Assembly: GCA_029256105.1 (NCBI GenBank)
Contig: JAQSYO010000004.1
Location: 62,001-126,000 of the forward strand
Length of the DNA: 64,000 nucleotides
From: Herbinix sp.
GTDB lineage: Bacteria; Bacillota; Clostridia; Lachnospirales; Lachnospiraceae
Reading direction: 5' to 3'
Shown here: in pieces, positions 28,834 to 44,137 of the stretch
Layout of the letters: every line of letters begins with the position of its first letter
Numbering within the stretch: position 1 is the stretch's first letter
The notes under the pieces: model-generated
Seen by the model: the letters and a program-made list of their open reading frames with translations, nothing else
What the model was told of the DNA's origin: nothing
Database searches by the model: none
Translations under genes and position numbers: made by a program

Positions 28834-30024
28834 TTAATCTTGAACTTTATCTATGGATAATAATTTTTGATATGTTTTATCTATCATTAAAGCGCCTAAC
28901 GGTGCTGTAAATATTATTGATAATACGGCAACCGTAAGTACTTTATCACCACAAGCCAAACCCATAGCAAGCGGAATTGCGCCGATGGCTGCCTGTACTG
29001 TGGCTTTCGGACTGTACGCCAACATACAAAAGATACGTTCCTTCCTCGATAATTTTGTTTTTAAAAGACAGAAGAATACTCCAACCATTCGAAACATAAG
29101 TGCGCCAACGATTACAACCATGGCTATTAATCCGGCAGATATCGCATACTGCAAATCTACAGTTGCACCTACAAGTACAAATAATATAACTTCTGCGGCT
29201 ACCCATAATTTATTAAATTTTTCGGATAAGCGTTTTGCCAATATGTCATAGGTTTTATATAACGTAGCAGCCATACTCATAATTGCCAGCAACCCGGACA
29301 TCGGAATAATTCCACTGAGACGATGTTCCAGTTCAATCAGCAAGAAACTAACACCTAACATGATTAAGACTTTTGCAGAATCCCGCATATGAATTTCTTT
29401 AAAGAATTTTGATAATATTAACCCGGCAATAATGCCGATATACAAGCCAACCACAATAGAAATAGGTATCTGTACAAAACTCTGTACTGAAACCTTAGTA
29501 CCGGTTGCCAATGAAGTAAATGCAGTAAATAACACAATGACAAACACATCGTCAACAGAAGCACCGGCCAAGATAAGCCCTGGAATACCATTTTTTGTTC
29601 CATAGCCTTCTTCCATTAATCGAAGCATTCTTGGTACAATGACAGCTGGTGATACCGCTGCAACTACTGCACCCATGATAGCAGCTTCAAGAATTGTCAT
29701 ATTTAGTAACCTTGGTGCAATTAAGACAATTCCCAATATTTCAAAACAGGCAGGAACAAAACACATTAGTATTGCAGGTCTTCCTACCTTTTTTAAATCC
29801 TCCATATCAAGCGATAAGCCGGCTCTGGTTAAAATAACGACTAAGGCTAACTGTCGCAAATCAGCCGAAACCAGAAGTATCTTATCATCCAATAGATTAA
29901 GTGCAAAAGGGCTTAATATCATTCCGGTAATCAGCATACCAAGTAAACTTGGAAGTTTCAATTTATGAAATATTGAACCTAATAGTAACCCAAGTAAAAA
30001 AATCATTGCCAAGCTAGTTAACAT
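28834..30024 (-). CDS. CPA2/Kef-type cation:proton antiporter, fluoride-controlled
   Basis: Membrane antiporter of 396 residues with about 11-13 helices and no C-terminal TrkA domain. Readable CPA motifs are LLLGSIFHKLKLPSLLGMLI, VILTRAGLSLDMEDLKKVG, and GAVVAAVSPAVIVPRML with the paired polar residues of the unwound helix, plus AGASVDDVFVIVLFTAF with Asp-Asp. GGAGGAC precedes the ATG. Its leader is a fluoride riboswitch, so the cell treats this protein as part of fluoride resistance; the transported ions are not evident from sequence. Confidence 0.92.
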   Translation of the reverse strand: MLTSLAMIFLLGLLLGSIFHKLKLPSLLGMLITGMILSPFALNLLDDKILLVSADLRQLALVVILTRAGLSLDMEDLKKVGRPAILMCFVPACFEILGIVLIAPRLLNMTILEAAIMGAVVAAVSPAVIVPRMLRLMEEGYGTKNGIPGLILAGASVDDVFVIVLFTAFTSLATGTKVSVQSFVQIPISIVVGLYIGIIAGLILSKFFKEIHMRDSAKVLIMLGVSFLLIELEHRLSGIIPMSGLLAIMSMAATLYKTYDILAKRLSEKFNKLWVAAEVILFVLVGATVDLQYAISAGLIAMVVIVGALMFRMVGVFFCLLKTKLSRKERIFCMLAYSPKATVQAAIGAIPLAMGLACGDKVLTVAVLSIIFTAPLGALMIDKTYQKLLSIDKVQD

Positions 30025-30050
30025 TTAATAGTCCTCCATTTTTAAAATAA

Positions 30051-30135
30051 AAAAGCTGATTCTCCCGCGTTTATCGCAGAAGTCATCAGCTTAAAAGCAG
30101 TTTAGGCATATGCCATGGGAGAACTTCATTCCCAC
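30051..30135 (-). promoter_or_regulatory. Fluoride riboswitch (crcB motif) with terminator
   Basis: Minus-strand leader. P1 is GGGAATGAAGTTCTCCC, followed after a short GGCATATGCC hairpin by AAACTGC...GCTGATGACTTCTGC. The loop GAAGT can pair with ACTTC as the pseudoknot. This is the layout of the Thermotoga petrophila crcB-motif aptamer (GGGCGATGAGG, AAACTGCC, GGCTGATGGCCTC). The aptamer spans about 30135-30074. A terminator, AAGCTGAT...ATCAGCTT then TTTT, spans about 30094-30045 and shares the AAGCTGAT strand with the aptamer's P3. Fluoride binding should prevent termination, an ON switch. Confidence 0.9.
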
Positions 30136-30142
30136 TCACTAT

Positions 30143-30171
30143 AATATAACAATCCACTGTTCTTCTGTCAA
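30143..30171 (-). promoter_or_regulatory. Promoter of the fluoride-controlled antiporter
   Basis: TTGACA (30171-30166) and TATATT (30148-30143) on the minus strand are 17 bases apart, which puts the start of transcription at the first bases of the riboswitch. Confidence 0.8.
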
Positions 30172-35990: not shown

Positions 35991-37034
35991 TTATTTTTCA
36001 AAATTCTTATAGGAATGCGACGCTTCAATAAATTGGTTAAGTTTATTCTGCGCCAAACCACTGTCAAGAATTTCTTTTGCCAACTTAACACCGTCTTTTA
36101 AACTTTCCGCCTTATCTCCTATCATGAGAGCTCCTGCTGCGTTAAGTATCACAGCCTGACGACGTGGTCCTTTATTCTTTCCGGAGAATACATCTTTAAT
36201 CATTACTGCATTTGCTTCCGGCGTTCCAGTTGCAATATCATTTAACTTACATCTCGTTAGTCCCAGATCTTCCGGGATAATCTCATAACTTGTAATAATA
36301 CCGTTCTTTAACTCGTTCACCTTAGTCTTGCCAAGGAGTGATATCTCGTCCATTCCATCTTCTCCATGAACAAATAATGCTCTGGAATAGTCAAGTGAAA
36401 CAGCTACTTGGGTTACAATATCTAATAAATCAGGTTTGTATACGCCCATTACATGTCTCCTTGCTCTTGCCGGATTAATCAACGGCCCGATTATTGTATA
36501 AAAGATTGTTTTAATTCCCAAGTCCTTCTCTGGATGTATCATTTTACGCATAACCGGGTGAAATAACGGAGCATAGAGGAACGCCATTCCTACCTCTTCT
36601 ATCTGTTTTTCAACACTTCTGGGGCTTTGATTAATCTGAATTCCGAGTGCCTCCAGCACATCCGCACTACCGGATAAATGAATACTGGATTTACTACCGG
36701 TTTTGGCAACCTTAATTCCTGCTGCGGCTGCAACGAAAGCGACGGCAGTTGAAATATTAAAGGTACTTAACCCTCCACCAGTACCACAGGTGTCCATCAA
36801 TTCTCCTTCTACGTTAGGAGTTATCGGAATACAATAATCCCTCATTGCTTTGGCAATTGCTGAGATTTCTATAAGGGTCGGCCCCTTCATTAATAAGGCT
36901 ACCTGAAAACTCATAATCTGAATATCACTCATCTCATCCTTATGAATGGCTGAGATCATTCCATAGGCTTCTTCTGCGTTTAATTCCTGTCCTGCATTTA
37001 ACTTCTGCAAGAGTTCATTAATCATTCCTGCCAT
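35991..37034 (-). CDS. Second TrpD-like phosphoribosyltransferase at the end of the trp operon
   Basis: Homolog of anthranilate phosphoribosyltransferase, about 347 residues and full length, but clearly different from the trpD at 40685-41692. The PRPP loop is present (CGTGGGLSTFNIST). The next loop reads AKTGSKSSIHLSGSADVLEA where standard TrpD, including the other copy, has AKHGNRSVSSKCGSADVLEA; the His, Asn and Arg that contact anthranilate and PRPP become Thr, Ser and Lys. GIKTIFYTIIGPLINPA and VHGEDGMDEIS are conserved. It follows trpA with overlap; starts at 37034 or 37025 (ATGA overlap) are both possible. It may use another acceptor or be a low-efficiency second TrpD. Confidence 0.85.
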   Translation of the reverse strand: MAGMINELLQKLNAGQELNAEEAYGMISAIHKDEMSDIQIMSFQVALLMKGPTLIEISAIAKAMRDYCIPITPNVEGELMDTCGTGGGLSTFNISTAVAFVAAAAGIKVAKTGSKSSIHLSGSADVLEALGIQINQSPRSVEKQIEEVGMAFLYAPLFHPVMRKMIHPEKDLGIKTIFYTIIGPLINPARARRHVMGVYKPDLLDIVTQVAVSLDYSRALFVHGEDGMDEISLLGKTKVNELKNGIITSYEIIPEDLGLTRCKLNDIATGTPEANAVMIKDVFSGKNKGPRRQAVILNAAGALMIGDKAESLKDGVKLAKEILDSGLAQNKLNQFIEASHSYKNFEK

Positions 37035-37804
37035 GCGATACAAGCCCCTTTCATGCTCTGAACATAGTTCTCTACGTAAGGAACACAATCTTTGCCATAC
37101 TGTGCAACTATTTTCACAATAGCACTTCCAACGATTACACCATCCGAGATTGCAGCCATTTTTGACGCCTGCTCTGGAGTTGAAATACCAAATCCAATGG
37201 CACAGGGAATCTTTTTAATCTCTTTTACAAGGTTAATCATTTCTTCTAAATTAGAACTGATTTCACTTCGAATACCGGTAACCCCCATGGAGGAGACACA
37301 GTAAATAAAACCTTCCGCTTCCTTTGTAATCATATGTATCCGTTCCTTCGAAGTAGGTGCTATCATAGAGATTAGTGTAATTCCATTTTTATCACAATAG
37401 GGTTTTAACTCTTCTTTTTCTTCAAAGGGTACATCTGGTACGATTAAAGCATCTACCCCTGCTGCTTTACAATTCTCCATAAATCGTTCCGTCCCATACG
37501 TATATATTGGATTAGCATAGGTCATAAATGCTATCGGGACATTGCATACTTTTCGAATGCTCGTAACCATAGTAAATATTGTATCTGTCGTCACTCCTGC
37601 TGCTAAAGCACGATAATCTGCCTCTTGAATAATAGGTCCTTCTGCAACGGGATCAGAAAATGGTATCCCAAGCTCTATCAAATCAGCTCCCGCCTCCGCC
37701 ATACGAAGAACCAATTGCTCCGTAATTTCGATACAAGGATCACCTGCCGTCACAAAGGGGATAAATGCTTTCTTATTATGAAATACCTGCTCTATCCTAT
37801 TCAT
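37022..37804 (-). CDS. trpA: Tryptophan synthase alpha chain
   Basis: Cleaves indole-3-glycerol phosphate to indole, passed to TrpB. It has 260 residues. The catalytic region reads [19 protein letters not shown], with the catalytic Glu and Asp, after [23 protein letters not shown] and [11 protein letters not shown] bind phosphate. The ATG at 37804 has GGGGGG nine bases upstream. It overlaps trpB by 8 bases and the second trpD-like gene at its end. Confidence 0.97.
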
Positions 37805-38981
37805 ATATTTGTACCCCCCTGTACCGCGCAATCGCAGCAACATCCTTATCTCCCCTGCCGGATAGATTAATAACCATGATTTGATCCTTTCCCAAGGTAG
37901 GAGCTAATTTCCTTGCATATGCTACAGCATGCGCACTCTCAATTGCCGGAATAATTCCTTCCATACGAGCAAGATACTCGAAGGCATCGACTGCCTCCTG
38001 ATCCGTGATAGGAACATATTCAGCTCTGCCGGTATCATGGAGATAAGAATGCTCCGGACCAACACCTGGATAATCAAGTCCGGCTGAGATGGAGTAAACT
38101 GGTGCAATCTGACCGTATTCATCCTGGCAAAAATATGATTTCATTCCGTGAAAGATGCCGAGGGAACCGGTTGATATTGTAGCTGCCGTCTTATCGGTAT
38201 CCACGCCAAGTCCTGCTGCCTCACATCCAATTAATCGAACGGATGCATCTCCAATAAATTCATAGAACAATCCCATGGCATTACTTCCCCCACCTACACA
38301 AGCCAGCACAACATCCGGTAACTTACCTTCTTTCCTTTTCAGCTGTTCCTTAACTTCCCTACCGATAATACTCTGAAAATCACGTACAATCGTCGGAAAT
38401 GGATGAGGCCCCATAACAGAACCTAATACATAATGTGTATCCTCCACACGCTTTGTCCATTCACGCAGAGTCTCATTCACTGCATCCTTTAAGGTCTGCG
38501 TACCGGATGTAACTGCATGAACCTTTGCTCCCAACAGCTCCATACGAAATACATTCATCGCCTGACGATCCGTATCTTCCTTACCCATGAAAATCTCGCA
38601 TTCCAAACCAAGTAATGCTGCGGCTGTCGCTGTTGCAACTCCGTGTTGACCAGCACCTGTCTCTGCTATTACTCTTGTCTTACCCATCCGCTTAGCAAGA
38701 AGCACCTGTCCAAGAACATTATTAATTTTATGGGAACCGGTATGGTTTAAATCTTCTCTTTTTAGATATATCTTCGCTCCACCCAAATCTTTCGTCATCT
38801 TCTCTGCGTAATATAACAAGGATGGCCTACCAGCATAATTCTTTAATAAATCATCCAACTCGTTACAGAAGCTATCGTCATTTTTATAATGATTATAAGC
38901 TTCTTCCAACTCAATTACCGCATTCATTAAGGTCTCCGGTATATATTGCCCTCCGTGTACACCAAATCTTCCATTTGACAT
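37797..38981 (-). CDS. trpB: Tryptophan synthase beta chain
   Basis: PLP enzyme joining indole and serine, 394 residues. The PLP lysine lies in [10 protein letters not shown] (Lys85), followed by [17 protein letters not shown] (catalytic Glu) and the phosphate loop [17 protein letters not shown] near the end is also family-typical. AAGGAG precedes the ATG, just after a small ACCGCTGAAAGCGGT hairpin. A 214-base spacer with a terminator-like hairpin separates it from trpF. Confidence 0.98.
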
Positions 38982-39124
38982 TAATAACTCCTTTCCACCG
39001 CTTTCAGCGGTACAAATAACTTAGGATAAGACACTTACGTGACTTTTTATAGATGAATTATGTTCGGCATCTTCACTCTAACCAGTATTGCCACACAATG
39101 GTCACAATACTGATGAATACCTGT

Positions 39125-39191
39125 AAATATAAGAATGAATTTCCACTGGAATTCATTCTTATATTTGCTAAAAATTCAGCCATGCTGAATT
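39125..39191 (-). terminator. Long hairpin and terminator-like hairpin inside the trp operon
   Basis: Between trpF and trpB, AATTCAGC/GCTGAATT followed by TTTTTAGC (39191-39171 on the minus strand) looks like an intrinsic terminator, and just beyond is a perfect 17-bp inverted repeat (39125-39141 with 39150-39166). They could lower expression of trpB, trpA and the second trpD relative to the first five genes. Confidence 0.6.
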
Positions 39192-39195
39192 TTTT

Positions 39196-39807
39196 TTACA
39201 TACTCCTTACTTTCGTTACAATATCAAGAACCTTATCTTGATCCTTCCAACCCTCTGTCTCAACTCCACTACTTACATCAATACAATATGGATGAGCTAT
39301 TAAAATAGCCTTTTTAACATTATCAGTGCGAATTCCTCCTGCAAGAAAAAAGGGTTTGTTTATCTTAGTAATCATGGTCCAATCAAAGGCTTCACCTATT
39401 CCACCATACTGATCTTGCTTATAAGCATCCAAGAGTAAATAATCACAAGGTAATTTACTTGCTATCGTAATATCCTCCAAATTGCGTACCCTAACTGCTT
39501 TTATAATTGGATTAGATATCAGGGTTTTTAATTTGAGAATATAATTCATATCCTCCTCTCCATGCAGTTGAACAATATCAATAATACCTGAAGTACACAA
39601 CCGTATAATATGGTCAATATCATCGTTTACAAAAACGCCTACTGCTTTGATATCAGGATTCAATAATGCTTTCAATTCTTCAGCTATGCTATCGTTCACC
39701 TGTCGCTTACTATTTGCAAATACGAAACCAATATAATCCGGAAGTACCGTATTAACCATATCGATATCTACTTTTCTTGATAACCCACAGATTTTAATCT
39801 TTATCAT
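39196..39807 (-). CDS. trpF: Phosphoribosylanthranilate isomerase
   Basis: Converts PRA to CdRP; 203 residues forming a (beta/alpha)8 barrel. It begins IKICGLSRKVDIDMVN with the catalytic Cys, and has YIGFVFANSKRQV, VQLHGEED and the phosphate site FFLAGGIRTDNV, then IDVSSGVETEGWKD. It is a stand-alone gene, not fused to trpC, with a 53-base gap after trpC. Confidence 0.96.
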   Translation of the reverse strand: MIKIKICGLSRKVDIDMVNTVLPDYIGFVFANSKRQVNDSIAEELKALLNPDIKAVGVFVNDDIDHIIRLCTSGIIDIVQLHGEEDMNYILKLKTLISNPIIKAVRVRNLEDITIASKLPCDYLLLDAYKQDQYGGIGEAFDWTMITKINKPFFLAGGIRTDNVKKAILIAHPYCIDVSSGVETEGWKDQDKVLDIVTKVRSM

Positions 39808-39860
39808 TTCGGTATCCTCCCGAACTATATTTCTAACGGATCAAAACTACTATATAATAT

Positions 39861-40658
39861 TTAATATCCTTTTAATTTGGAAAGTAGTTCTTTCTTATTG
39901 CTACTACGCATTAATGTCTCCCCGATTAATACGGCATTCACACCTACTGCTTTTAAAGCTGCGATGTCCTGCGCTGTTTTTATTCCACTCTCAGCAACAA
40001 AGATAATATCCTTAGGTACCAAACTACGTAATTCTATACTATGATTAATATCTACTTCAAAGGTTTGTAGGTTACGATTATTTACCCCAATGATTCTTGC
40101 ACCAGCCTCGATTGCGGAAAACACCTCATCCTTCGAATGTGCTTCCACCAAAGCAGATAATCCCAATTCATTGCTAAGTGCTAGGAATTTCTTCAATGTA
40201 CTTGTATCCAGTAAAGAACATATGAGTAATACCGCATCGGCCCCGATTAACTTTGCTTCATAAATCTGATATTCATCGATCGTAAAATCTTTACGAAGTA
40301 CTGGGATATGCAACTGGTCACTTATCTCCTTTAAGTATCGATCCTCGCCTTTAAAATACTCCGGTTCCGTTAATACTGATATTGCATCAGCTCCAGCCGT
40401 TTCATAATCCTTTGCAATATCAAGATACGGAAAGTCTTCCGTTATAATCCCTTTTGAGGGAGAGGCTTTCTTCACTTCACAAATAAAAGTGAGCTCCTTC
40501 TTTCTTAAGGCTCTTTCGAAAGCAAAAGCATCACGGTTGTGAAAGCTTCGAACTCCAGCGCCATCATATATGATTGCTTTTAATTTCTCCAATGGAAGCT
40601 TATCCTTCGCATTTGAGACTCTGTTTCGACTAGACTCTGCAATTGTATCTAGTATCAT
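39861..40658 (-). CDS. trpC: Indole-3-glycerol-phosphate synthase
   Basis: Closes the indole ring from CdRP; 265 residues. Signature stretches are FICEVKKASPSKG (catalytic Lys), ISVLTEPEYFKG, VLRKDFTIDEYQIYEA, IGVNNRNLQTFEVD and FVAESGIKTAQDI. It follows trpD after 33 bases within the operon. Confidence 0.97.
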   Translation of the reverse strand: MILDTIAESSRNRVSNAKDKLPLEKLKAIIYDGAGVRSFHNRDAFAFERALRKKELTFICEVKKASPSKGIITEDFPYLDIAKDYETAGADAISVLTEPEYFKGEDRYLKEISDQLHIPVLRKDFTIDEYQIYEAKLIGADAVLLICSLLDTSTLKKFLALSNELGLSALVEAHSKDEVFSAIEAGARIIGVNNRNLQTFEVDINHSIELRSLVPKDIIFVAESGIKTAQDIAALKAVGVNAVLIGETLMRSSNKKELLSKLKGY

Positions 40659-40684
40659 ACGTTTACCTTACCTTCCTATGTTCA

Positions 40685-41692
40685 TTATGCATTGGATAAT
40701 TTAATAAATCTGTCCAACTGCTCCATTGCTTTACCACTATCTATGGTTTCCGCAGCCAGCTTTACACACTTTCTTAAGGTAATATTATTATAAGACATAT
40801 ACAGACAGATTGCCGAATTCAGAAGTACGATATCCCTCTTTGGTCCTTTATCACCCTTTAAAATACTTCTTGCGATATTAGCATTCAAAGTAGGATCGCC
40901 ACCAACCAAATCCTCCGGTTTACAATACTCAAACCCAAATTGATGCGGGTCTAGAAAGAAGCTGTTTACCTGTCCTTGGTTCACTTCACATACGGTTGTC
41001 TTAGCACTTAAGGATACCTCGTCTAGCCCGTCATGACCATGTACTACCATAGCTCTCTTTACACCAAGATTAGCAAGTACTCTGGCCATCGGTTCCACCA
41101 AACTCTCATCATATACGCCTAATAACTGCAGGTTAGCATTCGCTGGACTTGATAGTGGCCCAAGAATATTAAAAATGGTTCGAACGCCTAATTCTTTTCT
41201 AACCGGCGCAGCATGTCGCATGGAAGAATGATAGATGGGAGCAAATAAAAAGCATATTCCGATTTCTTTTAAAATACTCTCACTTTTTTCTACCGGTATA
41301 TCAATCTTAACCCCCAACGCTTCCAGCACATCAGCACTACCACATTTACTAGATACACTACGATTACCGTGCTTTGCAACCGGAACACCTGCAGCGGAGA
41401 TAACGAGAGCGGAAATGGTTGAAATATTAAAGGTAAAGGCCTCATCACCACCGGTACCAACAATGTCAAGAACATCCCCTTCATGCTGTAGCTTTAAACC
41501 AATCTTTCTCATACTCATAGCACAAGCAGTTATCTCATCAATCGATTCTCCCTTCATACGAAGCGCTGTGATAAAGGATGCAATCTGCGCATTCGTTGCA
41601 TTGCCACTCATAATTTCATCCATAACAGACTTTGTCATATCTAAGGATAGATCTTCTTTATTTAGTATCTTATAAATTGCTTGCTGAATCAT
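40685..41692 (-). CDS. trpD: Anthranilate phosphoribosyltransferase
   Basis: Transfers phosphoribose from PRPP to anthranilate; 335 residues. The canonical loops are intact: DIVGTGGDEAFTFNIST and AKHGNRSVSSKCGSADVLEA, with VHGHDGLDEVS later. The start MIQQAIYKIL at 41692 has GGAGG five bases upstream; it overlaps the end of trpG. This copy is therefore the expected working TrpD, in contrast to the divergent paralog at 35991-37034. Confidence 0.97.
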   Translation of the reverse strand: MIQQAIYKILNKEDLSLDMTKSVMDEIMSGNATNAQIASFITALRMKGESIDEITACAMSMRKIGLKLQHEGDVLDIVGTGGDEAFTFNISTISALVISAAGVPVAKHGNRSVSSKCGSADVLEALGVKIDIPVEKSESILKEIGICFLFAPIYHSSMRHAAPVRKELGVRTIFNILGPLSSPANANLQLLGVYDESLVEPMARVLANLGVKRAMVVHGHDGLDEVSLSAKTTVCEVNQGQVNSFFLDPHQFGFEYCKPEDLVGGDPTLNANIARSILKGDKGPKRDIVLLNSAICLYMSYNNITLRKCVKLAAETIDSGKAMEQLDRFIKLSNA

Positions 41693-42272
41693 AATTGCCT
41701 CCATTTCCTATCTGTAAGAAATTTTTCATGATCACTTCACCTTGCGGTGTTAATATTGATTCCGGATGAAATTGTAATCCATAGATATCATAATTCCTAT
41801 GTTTGATTGCCATTACTTCTCCATCGTCATCCTCCGCAATTACCAGAAGTTCATCCGGGAGTGTGTCCTTCTCTGCAATCAATGAATGGTATCTTGCTGC
41901 CTTAATCATCGGTGGTAATCCATGAAATATACGACTACCATTTGCAATATGGATATTGCTCTGTTTTCCGTGCATCAATCGTTTTGCTAGCGTAATTTGT
42001 GCTCCAAAGGTTTCGCAGATGCCCTGATGACCAAGGCAAACACCAAGAATAGGAACCTCACCCTTTATATTTTCTATTAATTGTTCGCAGATACCCGCGT
42101 CTTTCGGGTAGCCCGGCCCAGGCGATATAATAATATGGGTTGGTTTTAATGCTCTAATTTCCTCTACTGTCCTTTCATCATTACGGATCACGTGGATATC
42201 ACCACTAATACCTCCGGCTAACTGCACTAGATTGTAAGTAAAACTATCGTAATTATCGATTAATAATATCAT
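41670..42272 (-). CDS. trpG: Anthranilate synthase glutamine amidotransferase
   Basis: Component II, supplying ammonia from glutamine; 200 residues. Class I amidotransferase motifs are LLIDNYDSFTYNLVQ, ISPGPGYPKDAG, GVCLGHQGI (catalytic Cys) and LQFHPESILTPQG (His, Glu). The start overlaps the trpE stop as ATGA. It may also serve folate synthesis as in Bacillus, but no pab gene is nearby. Confidence 0.97.
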   Translation of the reverse strand: MILLIDNYDSFTYNLVQLAGGISGDIHVIRNDERTVEEIRALKPTHIIISPGPGYPKDAGICEQLIENIKGEVPILGVCLGHQGICETFGAQITLAKRLMHGKQSNIHIANGSRIFHGLPPMIKAARYHSLIAEKDTLPDELLVIAEDDDGEVMAIKHRNYDIYGLQFHPESILTPQGEVIMKNFLQIGNGGNYDSASNL

Positions 42273-43729
42273 AGCTCATCTACCTCACTTGCTCTCATAA
42301 TCGCTTCTATCACAGCTTTGGCTTTATTCTCTGATTCTTCGTATTCCTTCTCCGGAACACTATCTGCAACAATGCCGCCACCTGCCTGAACATATACCAT
42401 GTCGTTCTTCTTTACCGCCATCCGAATCGCAATGCAAGTATCCATGTTGCCGGTAAAATCAATATAGCCGATTGCTCCACCGTAGATGCCTCTTGGTGCT
42501 TTCTCTAATTCCTCAATGATTTCGCAGGCTCTAATCTTTGGAGCTCCGGATAAAGTACCAGCCGGGAGAATTGCTTCTATCGCATCCAATGCATCCTTTT
42601 CCTTTTTAATTGCACCTTCAACCTCAGAGGTTATGTGCATAATTCTTGAATAACGCTGGATTCTCATATAATCGGTCACTCGAACACCACGATATTCCGA
42701 TATTTTACCAACATCATTTCTGGCAAGATCCACCAACATATTATGTTCGGAGAGTTCCTTTTCGTCTGCAAGTAATTCCCTCTCAAGCGCCTCATCTTCT
42801 TCCTTATCCATACCTCTCGGTCTGGAACCGGCTATCGGGAAGGTAGATAATTTTCCATCCTTAAGTCTTACTAAAGTCTCCGGTGAGGTGCTAATCAACT
42901 GAACATCGTCATTTTGCATAAACACCATGTATGGAGAAGGATTGGTTGTTCTTAATACGCGATATGCATTTAATAGATTATCTTTATAATCCGTCTCAAA
43001 CCTTCTTGATATTACTGCTTGGAAAATGTCACCATTTACGATATGTTCCTTTGTCTTATCAACCATATTGCAATACTCTTCCTTCGTTACATTGCAGTGA
43101 AAGGATGGCTTGCTTTCGATGTGCAGTTTTTCAAAAGGAACCTGTTCCGTAATAAAGCGGGTCAAAGCTTCAATATCAGATACAGCTTTACCATAATTCT
43201 CAAGTACTTTATCCGTCCTCATATTTACTACAATACTTATTTTTTGTTTCAGGTGATCATAAGCAATCACTTTGTCAAATAGCATTAAGTCAAAATCATT
43301 AAATTCACTTGGCTTAATTTTTAATACCGGCTCTGCATAACCAATCATTTCATAGGAGAAGTAACCTACCAATCCGCCAGTAAAAGGTGGCATTCCTTCC
43401 AGCTTCGGGGCTTTGTATTGCTCCAAAAGTGTTCGTAGTACCTCAAACGGCTTTTCCGAAGGGATTACTTGCCTCTCTCCGCTATCAATTACTACTTCCT
43501 TGTTTTTGCAGGTTACATGAACGATTGGATTAAAACCCAAGAAGGAATATCTTCCCCATTTTTCACCGCCTTCAATACTCTCAAGTAGATAATACTGTTG
43601 ACTAATTTGGGATATCTTACGGAGTAATGTAATCGGTGTAATAATGTCAGCATAGATTTCTTTGCAAATCGGTAGGATACGATACTCTTTTGCTAATAAT
43701 TCAATTTCGTTACAGCTTGGTGTTATCAC
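42269..43729 (-). CDS. trpE: Anthranilate synthase component I
   Basis: Makes anthranilate from chorismate; 486 residues from the GTG at 43729, which has AGGTG six bases upstream (a GTG nine bases earlier coincides with that site). The feedback-inhibition motif LLES is present in [20 protein letters not shown], so Trp inhibition is likely. Chorismate-binding motifs are [43 protein letters not shown] and [12 protein letters not shown]. It is the first gene of the operon, after a T-box leader. Confidence 0.97.
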
Positions 43730-43852
43730 TATAATCACCTATTTTTCATTGATGGGATGAAAAATTCCTTTCTTTTAGTTTTATCTACTTATTTTTGTAG
43801 CCGTTGTCAGGAAAGTATCGATTCCTTTATTAGGTAATACACTTTTTTGGGT

Positions 43853-44137
43853 ATAAAAAAAAGCCCTTATCCCTGTAATTATACAGGGACAAAAGCTTTA
43901 AACTTCTGCGGTACCACCCGGTTTGATGTATTATTATACATCCTCTCATTTTGCATACCATCATATGCACCCCACTGATAACGGAAAGGGTTCCCGTAAG
44001 CGCCTACTCTCTAAGATTTCGGGCTTCCCTCACAAGTCCATTCAGAATTACCTTTGTAACTGCATTCCCACCAACAGCAGCTCTCTGTATACAATAAGTC
44101 AATCTTACTCTTCTTGCTCAACAGTTTATTAATATTT
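43853..44137 (-). promoter_or_regulatory. T-box leader, tryptophan-specific, upstream of trpE
   Basis: The minus-strand leader ends with the T-box AACCGGGTGGTACCGCAG (43923-43906), whose GGTGG/ACCGC context pairs with an uncharged tRNA tail. A terminator follows: GTCCCTGTATAATTACAGGGA within a longer stem, then eight Ts (43897-43853). Stem I contains GAATGGACTT with the specifier codon UGG at 44040-44038, so tRNA-Trp is sensed. AGTAGGCGCTTACGGG is the conserved end of Stem I. Low charging of tRNA-Trp should allow read-through into trpE. Confidence 0.95.

Follow-up and report, generated by a model that had tools for sequence, protein, structure and literature searches.

A fluoride riboswitch-linked antiporter of the NHA (SLC9B) clade as a candidate third kind of bacterial fluoride exporter

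Introduction

Why does a fluoride riboswitch precede a gene that encodes neither of the known bacterial fluoride exporters? The question is raised by a locus in the window, by which we mean the whole 64,000-nucleotide stretch of Herbinix sp. DNA analysed here. The original prediction held that a crcB-motif riboswitch controls a Kef-like, CPA2-type antiporter, and that the cell thereby links either cation/proton exchange or an unrecognised anion export to fluoride. A 2024 review counts two fluoride exporters in bacteria (PMC11139923). Fluoride riboswitches and their association with antiporters are both of known kinds, and the association is not new, because it is already in print (PMC11139923, PMC11477304). 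The published riboswitch-linked Na+/H+ antiporters, including Clostridioides difficile CD0657, likewise lie behind fluoride riboswitches; there they are read as serving pH homeostasis or are listed beside a CLC. A single fluoride riboswitch of C. difficile stands before a CLC gene and an NhaP-type antiporter gene (PMC11477304). The passages of these two papers considered here contain no family assignment and no exclusion pattern for riboswitch-linked antiporters, and titles and abstracts of the open-licence literature yielded no proposal that fluoride is exported by a CPA or NHA protein. What is new here is the distribution, namely that the antiporter largely avoids genomes with Fluc or CLC-F.

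Results

The leader combines a fluoride aptamer with an overlapping terminator

The whole locus reads on the minus strand. Its first element, a promoter-like site (30143..30171), TTGACA and TATATT separated by 17 nucleotides and with TG before the second hexamer, matches the consensus at 11 of 12 positions and was the top of 16 sites in the scanned region (7.8 expected). It abuts the aptamer, ending immediately 5' of it. The aptamer (30070..30142) matches RF01734 over model positions 1-64 of 64, scoring 48.2 bits (E 2.8e-10; gathering score 34), and is the sole match to this model within the 4.8-Mb window genome. The covariance-model search thus bore out the identification of the leader as a fluoride riboswitch, and P1, the AAACUGC/GCUGAUG core and the GAAGU/ACUUC pseudoknot strands that had been claimed for it are all readable in the sequence.

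A predicted intrinsic terminator, comprising a hairpin (30092-30053) and a U tract (together 30042..30092), uses the aptamer 3' strand GCUGAUGACUUCU as its own 5' arm. This arm runs from AAGCUGAU to ACUUCUGCG, and the hairpin continues into UUUUUUAUUUU. The leader fold has a free energy of -32.2 kcal/mol (z -3.46), and none of 200 shuffled sequences was equally stable, which together with the sequence reading supports the terminator sharing the aptamer strand as originally proposed. A simple terminator scan of the region did not list the hairpin, so its assignment rests on the fold. By fold and sequence, terminator and aptamer appear mutually exclusive, as is expected of an expression platform. 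An ON switch is therefore expected, in line with the logic stated for the crcB motif (PMC2864571), and the window leader would behave accordingly. A ribosome-binding site, TGGAGG (30033..30038), is readable 8 bases 5' of the ATG.

The window contains a second regulatory leader, a T-box at 43882-44130 (minus strand; 119 bits, above the Rfam cut-off), upstream of a minus-strand row of open reading frames (35991-43738) that, judging from one translation, looks like a tryptophan operon.

The gene encodes a bacterial member of the NHA clade

The gene behind the leader (28834..30024, minus strand) encodes a protein of 396 amino acids. Residues 12-380 match PF00999 (E 4.1e-41; 141.5 bits against a gathering score of 26.2), which is the sole Pfam match, and the protein stops at residue 396. 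Neither PF02537 (Fluc/CrcB) nor PF00654 (CLC-F, further marked by GREGT/V and GEVTP signatures) was matched in the Pfam search, in agreement with the earlier view that the gene encodes neither exporter. The nearest same-strand gene begins 217 bases downstream, where a regulator, a GntP permease and a glycerate kinase resemble a glycerate-use cluster. Because the next gene is this far off and opens an apparent cluster of its own, the antiporter gene is probably transcribed alone.

There is no C-terminal RCK domain, and the Kef-like label proved imprecise. Kef identity was rejected: TIGR00932 scored 41.4 bits against a cut-off of 238.3, and no Kef chain was found among the nine PDB sequences with an E-value of 0.01 or better. 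Likewise, membership in the CPA superfamily stands, but the NCBIfam CPA2 model and the potassium/proton antiporter models remained far under their cut-offs, and the protein instead falls into the NHA clade. A profile built from 29 antiporter members from the window's family (A1) and searched against PDB sequences had NHA2/SLC9B2 on top (206.7 and 203.8 bits), followed at a distance by MjNhaP1 (65.7), PaNhaP (50.9) and NapA (38.8 bits). An AlphaFold model made from 42 sequences (alignment A4; pLDDT 83.8, pTM 0.81) shows helix breaks at residues 122-125 and 337-341. In Foldseek, it obtained its lowest E-value with NHA2, at a TM-score of 0.78-0.81 and 29-31% identity; the TM-scores of NhaP were slightly higher (up to 0.85), at 19-22% identity. 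The prokaryotic Na+/H+ antiporters NhaP and NapA thus have the fold in common with the window protein, but are far weaker matches by sequence, with about 18-22% identity. Taken together, profile and fold similarity to NHA2 (PDB 7b4l, 7p1i), the animal Na+/Li+-H+ exchanger, place the window protein in the NHA (SLC9B) clade as a bacterial member.

The residues of note in the window protein are E95, S125-P126, D158, D159, R312, Y337, K340 and T342. In a profile alignment read by eye, D277-D278, Glu214, Arg431, Lys459 and Thr461 of bison NHA2, whose roles are described in PMC8850199, correspond to D158-D159, E95, R312, K340 and T342, all of which are invariant across the 29 members of A1. AVSPAV, too, is common to NHA2 and the window protein, in addition to these residues, of which the Lys and the Thr belong to the helix break. 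They differ in that Trp456 of NHA2 is Tyr337 in the window protein, that the window gene is under a fluoride riboswitch, and that the extra N-terminal helix of NHA2 is absent, the profile beginning at chain residue 115-142. Since this helix is reported for mammalian NHA2, it is not a test of clade membership. Because the residues for Na+/Li+ exchange are kept, nothing in the sequence shows a changed substrate. The AVSP motif was considered as a mark of a new substrate and rejected, because NHA2 carries it too.

The riboswitch-antiporter pair recurs in relatives

In a sample of 200 genomes of the window's family, each with a different genus code, RF01734 matched in 46 and exceeded the cut-off in 42. 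In 40 of these 42, the same strand carries an orthologue (or the remnant of an orthologue) of the window gene downstream, at 18-294 bases and in one case at 1982 bases (G046). In the latter genome, an open reading frame for a group II intron reverse transcriptase/maturase sits between riboswitch and antiporter gene (L070 3152-4543, minus strand). Two of the 40 linked genes are remnants (G008, L024/L200; G131, L020/L173), both behind above-cut-off riboswitches, and 7 of the 63 antiporter match rows of the family search contain at least one internal stop. The remaining two riboswitches precede the known exporters: in G091 the gene for the Fluc/CrcB channel, an unrelated family (PF02537) of about 120-150 amino acids, follows directly, and in G102 the gene for the fluoride/proton antiporter CLC-F, likewise unrelated (PF00654), occupies the place of the antiporter. 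As separate curiosities, G082 has two tandem antiporter genes (L199), and two tandem fluoride riboswitches precede a single antiporter gene in G164 (C21:141735-141942).

The antiporter was found without a riboswitch in 21 of its 61 family carriers, and a search at relaxed threshold at these 21 found none; they include one locus whose upstream side runs off the contig (G063) and one with a remnant only (G169). Fluoride control thus appears dispensable for some members, and it could be argued that the window's aptamer, too, has decayed or been re-tuned and no longer responds to fluoride. We consider this very improbable, given a score of 48.2 bits with all core elements present, the overlapping terminator, the adjacent promoter-like site and the recurrence of this layout in many relatives.

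The linkage extends beyond the family. A covariance model of 28 antiporter leaders, one CLC-F leader and one CrcB leader (R1) detected a riboswitch 27-223 bases upstream in 62 of 80 named loci (the top 80 of 562; six of them duplicate places of the 200-genome set). Of these matches, 54 reached at least 41.9 bits and 8 were weak, four of them above the Rfam cut-off and four below, including three Brachyspira loci. In 55 of the 62 leaders, aptamer and terminator overlap just as they do in the window. At a further named locus, L212, a riboswitch lies 2.2 kb upstream, heading a gene row, which also contains a GGGtGRT-family gene. Here (L212 1217-4679) and at L226 (3207-5204) the antiporter gene adjoins a universal stress protein gene, which at L226 is followed by a second riboswitch (38.2 bits). 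Among the best 30 of the 55 carriers in a class-wide sample, R1 matched upstream in 28, twice weakly; two of the 30 repeat the 200-genome set and two repeat named loci.

In a plasmid collection, near-full-length relatives of the antiporter were detected in ten records. All six that were examined (36-58% identity) have an RF01734 match above the cut-off upstream; they come from Acetoanaerobium, Peptoclostridium, Ilyobacter, Cetobacterium, Picosynechococcus and Leptolyngbya and thus span Clostridia, Fusobacteriota and Cyanobacteriota. On the Peptoclostridium plasmid, a CBS-domain gene stands between riboswitch and antiporter. The two plasmid-borne cyanobacterial homologues behind fluoride riboswitches, L375 (538 amino acids) and L377 (541 amino acids), keep E95, R312, K340 and T342 and have Ser for D158 and Asn for Y337; they also have Glu for V124 and a longer C-terminus than the window protein. 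A different kind of plasmid match is represented by 345 of 362 records, mostly from Escherichia and Klebsiella, at 60-80% identity to the window protein. In the one inspected (L372 6022-6570, NZ_ON209143.1), the annotation gives a "cation:proton antiporter"; this fragment, with about 60% identity to window residues 206-393, adjoins rmtB on an Enterobacter plasmid.

The antiporter largely avoids genomes with Fluc or CLC-F

The window genome (98.54% complete, 7.48% contamination) yielded no CrcB match and no CLC match. Among the 200 genera of the family, 61 carry the antiporter, 57 near full length at no less than 48% identity and four partially; a family search at E 1e-20 added nothing beyond these 61. 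Fluc was found in 41 genera, any CLC in 112 and CLC-F in nine, the last being called by the GREGV and GEVTP signatures as given in PMC11139923. Of 124 CLC stretches fetched, three without a CLC segment and 11 segments without the GREG motif were counted as not CLC-F, and the motif check left out five short fragment rows. No genus combined the antiporter with Fluc (12.5 expected) or with CLC-F (2.7 expected), and none combined Fluc with CLC-F (1.8 expected). For the antiporter with either known exporter, 0 stood against 15.2 expected (hypergeometric 4e-10, with genomes treated as independent). As a control, other CLC classes co-occurred with the antiporter at about the expected frequency (GREGP, 12 versus 8.5; GREGA, 19 versus 22.6; any CLC, 32 versus 34.2). 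The exclusion persisted in the 164 genomes with a completeness of 90% or more and a contamination of no more than 5% (antiporter 44, Fluc 37, overlap 0 versus 9.9 expected). The 21 carriers without a riboswitch also lack Fluc and CLC-F in every case. However, 89 of the 200 genera have none of the three, so that it is not unusual in this family for a known exporter to be missing.

Two further candidates were set aside. The third CLC class (GREGA, with GEIVP where read, e.g., L057 and L292), present in 74 genera of the 200, was considered as a possible hidden exporter of fluoride; its co-occurrence with both the antiporter and Fluc is near expectation, and the window genome has no CLC match of any kind. 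A weak RF01734 hit (29.8 bits) in G068, a genome with Fluc, does not stand as a counter-example, because the genes after it, by their translations, resemble cobalamin-synthesis genes.

In the class-wide sample of 331 genomes (antiporter at E 1e-40; Fluc above cut-off, with a weak fragment in G291 excluded), 55 genomes carry the antiporter and 60 carry Fluc, with an overlap of 0 against 10.0 expected (p 5e-6, again treating genomes as independent). For CLC-F, 30 of 45 matches at E 1e-80 were motif-checked and eight were accepted, one of them (G441, with GREGA/GEVTP) by score. In G545, one of these eight, a CLC-F gene adjoins a divergent antiporter gene (326 bits), and the riboswitch there faces the antiporter. 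Of the 80 named carriers, 50 were tested, picked for taxonomic spread and none of them from the 200-genome set. Neither Fluc nor CLC-F was found in 43, and a known exporter was found in seven: Fluc in Parabacteroides, Rikenellaceae and Fibrobacter, where the antiporter gene carries an internal stop, and CLC-F in Anaerotignum, Erysipelotrichaceae, Fibrobacterales and Clostridium nigeriense. For comparison, according to the review over 85% of the strains surveyed have an exporter (PMC11139923). Outside the window's family the exclusion is thus strong but not absolute.

It is conceivable that lineage and niche produced this pattern as a side effect, with related anaerobes having inherited either one gene or the other, and that the role of the antiporter in fluoride defence is minor or different. 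The counts treat genomes as independent, many genera have none of the three genes, and a quick gene tree, which intermingles taxonomic families at low support (of 48 inner branches, 10 are starred and 18 open), does not prove transfer; its open forks leave room for such an account. We nevertheless regard it as improbable, considering that nine families, and the genera g259, g265 and g291, contain both kinds in separate genomes, that the class result persists without the window's own family (p 1e-5), and that for the control CLC classes of the 200-genome set no such exclusion is seen.

Discussion

We show here that a fluoride riboswitch of the window's family predominantly precedes an NHA-clade antiporter gene, and that this gene and those for the known exporters were never found together in the 200 genera of the family. 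Read from the sequence, the locus comprises a riboswitch, an overlapping terminator, an adjacent gene and an NHA-like protein. The original interpretation is thus partly supported, and of its two alternatives we favour an unrecognised anion export over cation/proton exchange, on the basis of the distribution relative to Fluc and CLC-F. Fluoride-riboswitch control together with carriers that mostly lack Fluc and CLC-F suggests that the antiporter may be a third kind of exporter, and we put the probability that it represents a third fluoride-exporter family, beside Fluc and CLC-F, at roughly 60%.

In this proposal, the locus would be a one-gene fluoride defence unit. A rise in cytoplasmic fluoride would fold the aptamer, which would withhold GCUGAUGACUUC from the terminator and allow transcription of the antiporter gene. 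The NHA-clade antiporter would then itself export fluoride, standing in for Fluc or CLC-F. Replacement of the known exporters is suggested by the distribution, and exchange of fluoride with protons is a putative activity. One-to-one symport of H+ and F- would equal diffusion of HF and expel nothing, and we infer that antiport or the membrane potential would be needed. Most likely, an elevator mechanism would carry cytoplasmic fluoride out and external protons in. At a guess, the acidic pair and R312/K340 might handle H+ and F- in the elevator cycle.

Several observations bear on such an activity. Deep relatives in Fusobacteriota and Cyanobacteriota retain the riboswitch. The outward cavity of NHA2 is reported not to have the strongly negative surface seen in other exchangers (PMC8850199), and Drosophila Nha1 has been proposed as an H+-Cl- cotransporter, as reported in PMC9174904; the weakly charged cavity and the Drosophila proposal make anion transport on an NHA scaffold plausible. 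Against it, the latter paper found no such change in human NHA1 and doubts chloride binding there, and the residues for Na+ and Li+ in NHA2 appear to be kept in the window protein. Replacement of D158 and Y337 in the cyanobacterial relatives, the genera with none of the three genes, the carriers without a riboswitch, and the co-occurrences in seven named carriers and in G545 also count against the exporter reading.

The main rival assigns the antiporter a role as a Na+ (Li+, K+)/H+ exchanger that is induced by fluoride and restores cytoplasmic pH and ion balance after entry of HF, with fluoride export being performed by another protein or unneeded in such niches. Riboswitch-linked Na+/H+ antiporters have been interpreted in this way in print (PMC11139923), such a role agrees with the conserved ion-site residues, and C. 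difficile provides a precedent with CLC and antiporter in one riboswitch operon (PMC11477304), as do the seven of 50 named carriers with a known exporter alongside. A helper of this kind, however, ought to accompany exporters, and no known exporter was found with it in any of the 61 carriers of the family, nor Fluc in any of the 55 of the class sample. Moreover, the sole fluoride riboswitch found in the window genome precedes the antiporter, in a genome where neither CrcB nor CLC was matched. We therefore consider the pH-helper role less likely, though the strongest competitor. Since the antiporter holds the riboswitch position of Fluc and CLC-F and avoids their genomes, it behaves as an alternative exporter and not as a helper. 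Its NHA identity, together with its avoidance of genomes with known exporters, makes a third exporter family our best reading. That this family, built on the NHA/SLC9B scaffold, is switched by riboswitches in Clostridia, Bacteroidota, Fusobacteriota and Cyanobacteriota and replaces Fluc and CLC-F is a broader claim, for which we see even odds.

If true, the exporter reading would account for how many gut anaerobes without Fluc or CLC-F defend themselves against fluoride. The review names Spirochetes and Fusobacteria among exporter-poor groups (PMC11139923), and antiporter carriers occur in both (Brachyspira; Ilyobacter and Cetobacterium), the scarcity being the review's statement at group level and the Brachyspira riboswitches staying under the Rfam cut-off. 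The reading of riboswitch-linked antiporters would change, and a superfamily known for transporting cations would include an anion/proton exchanger. Small bacterial homologues, among them that of the laboratory cyanobacterium Picosynechococcus sp. PCC 7002, would allow the contested halide activity of animal NHA proteins to be tested, and the handling of halides may then be an ancient property of the clade to which human NHA2 belongs.
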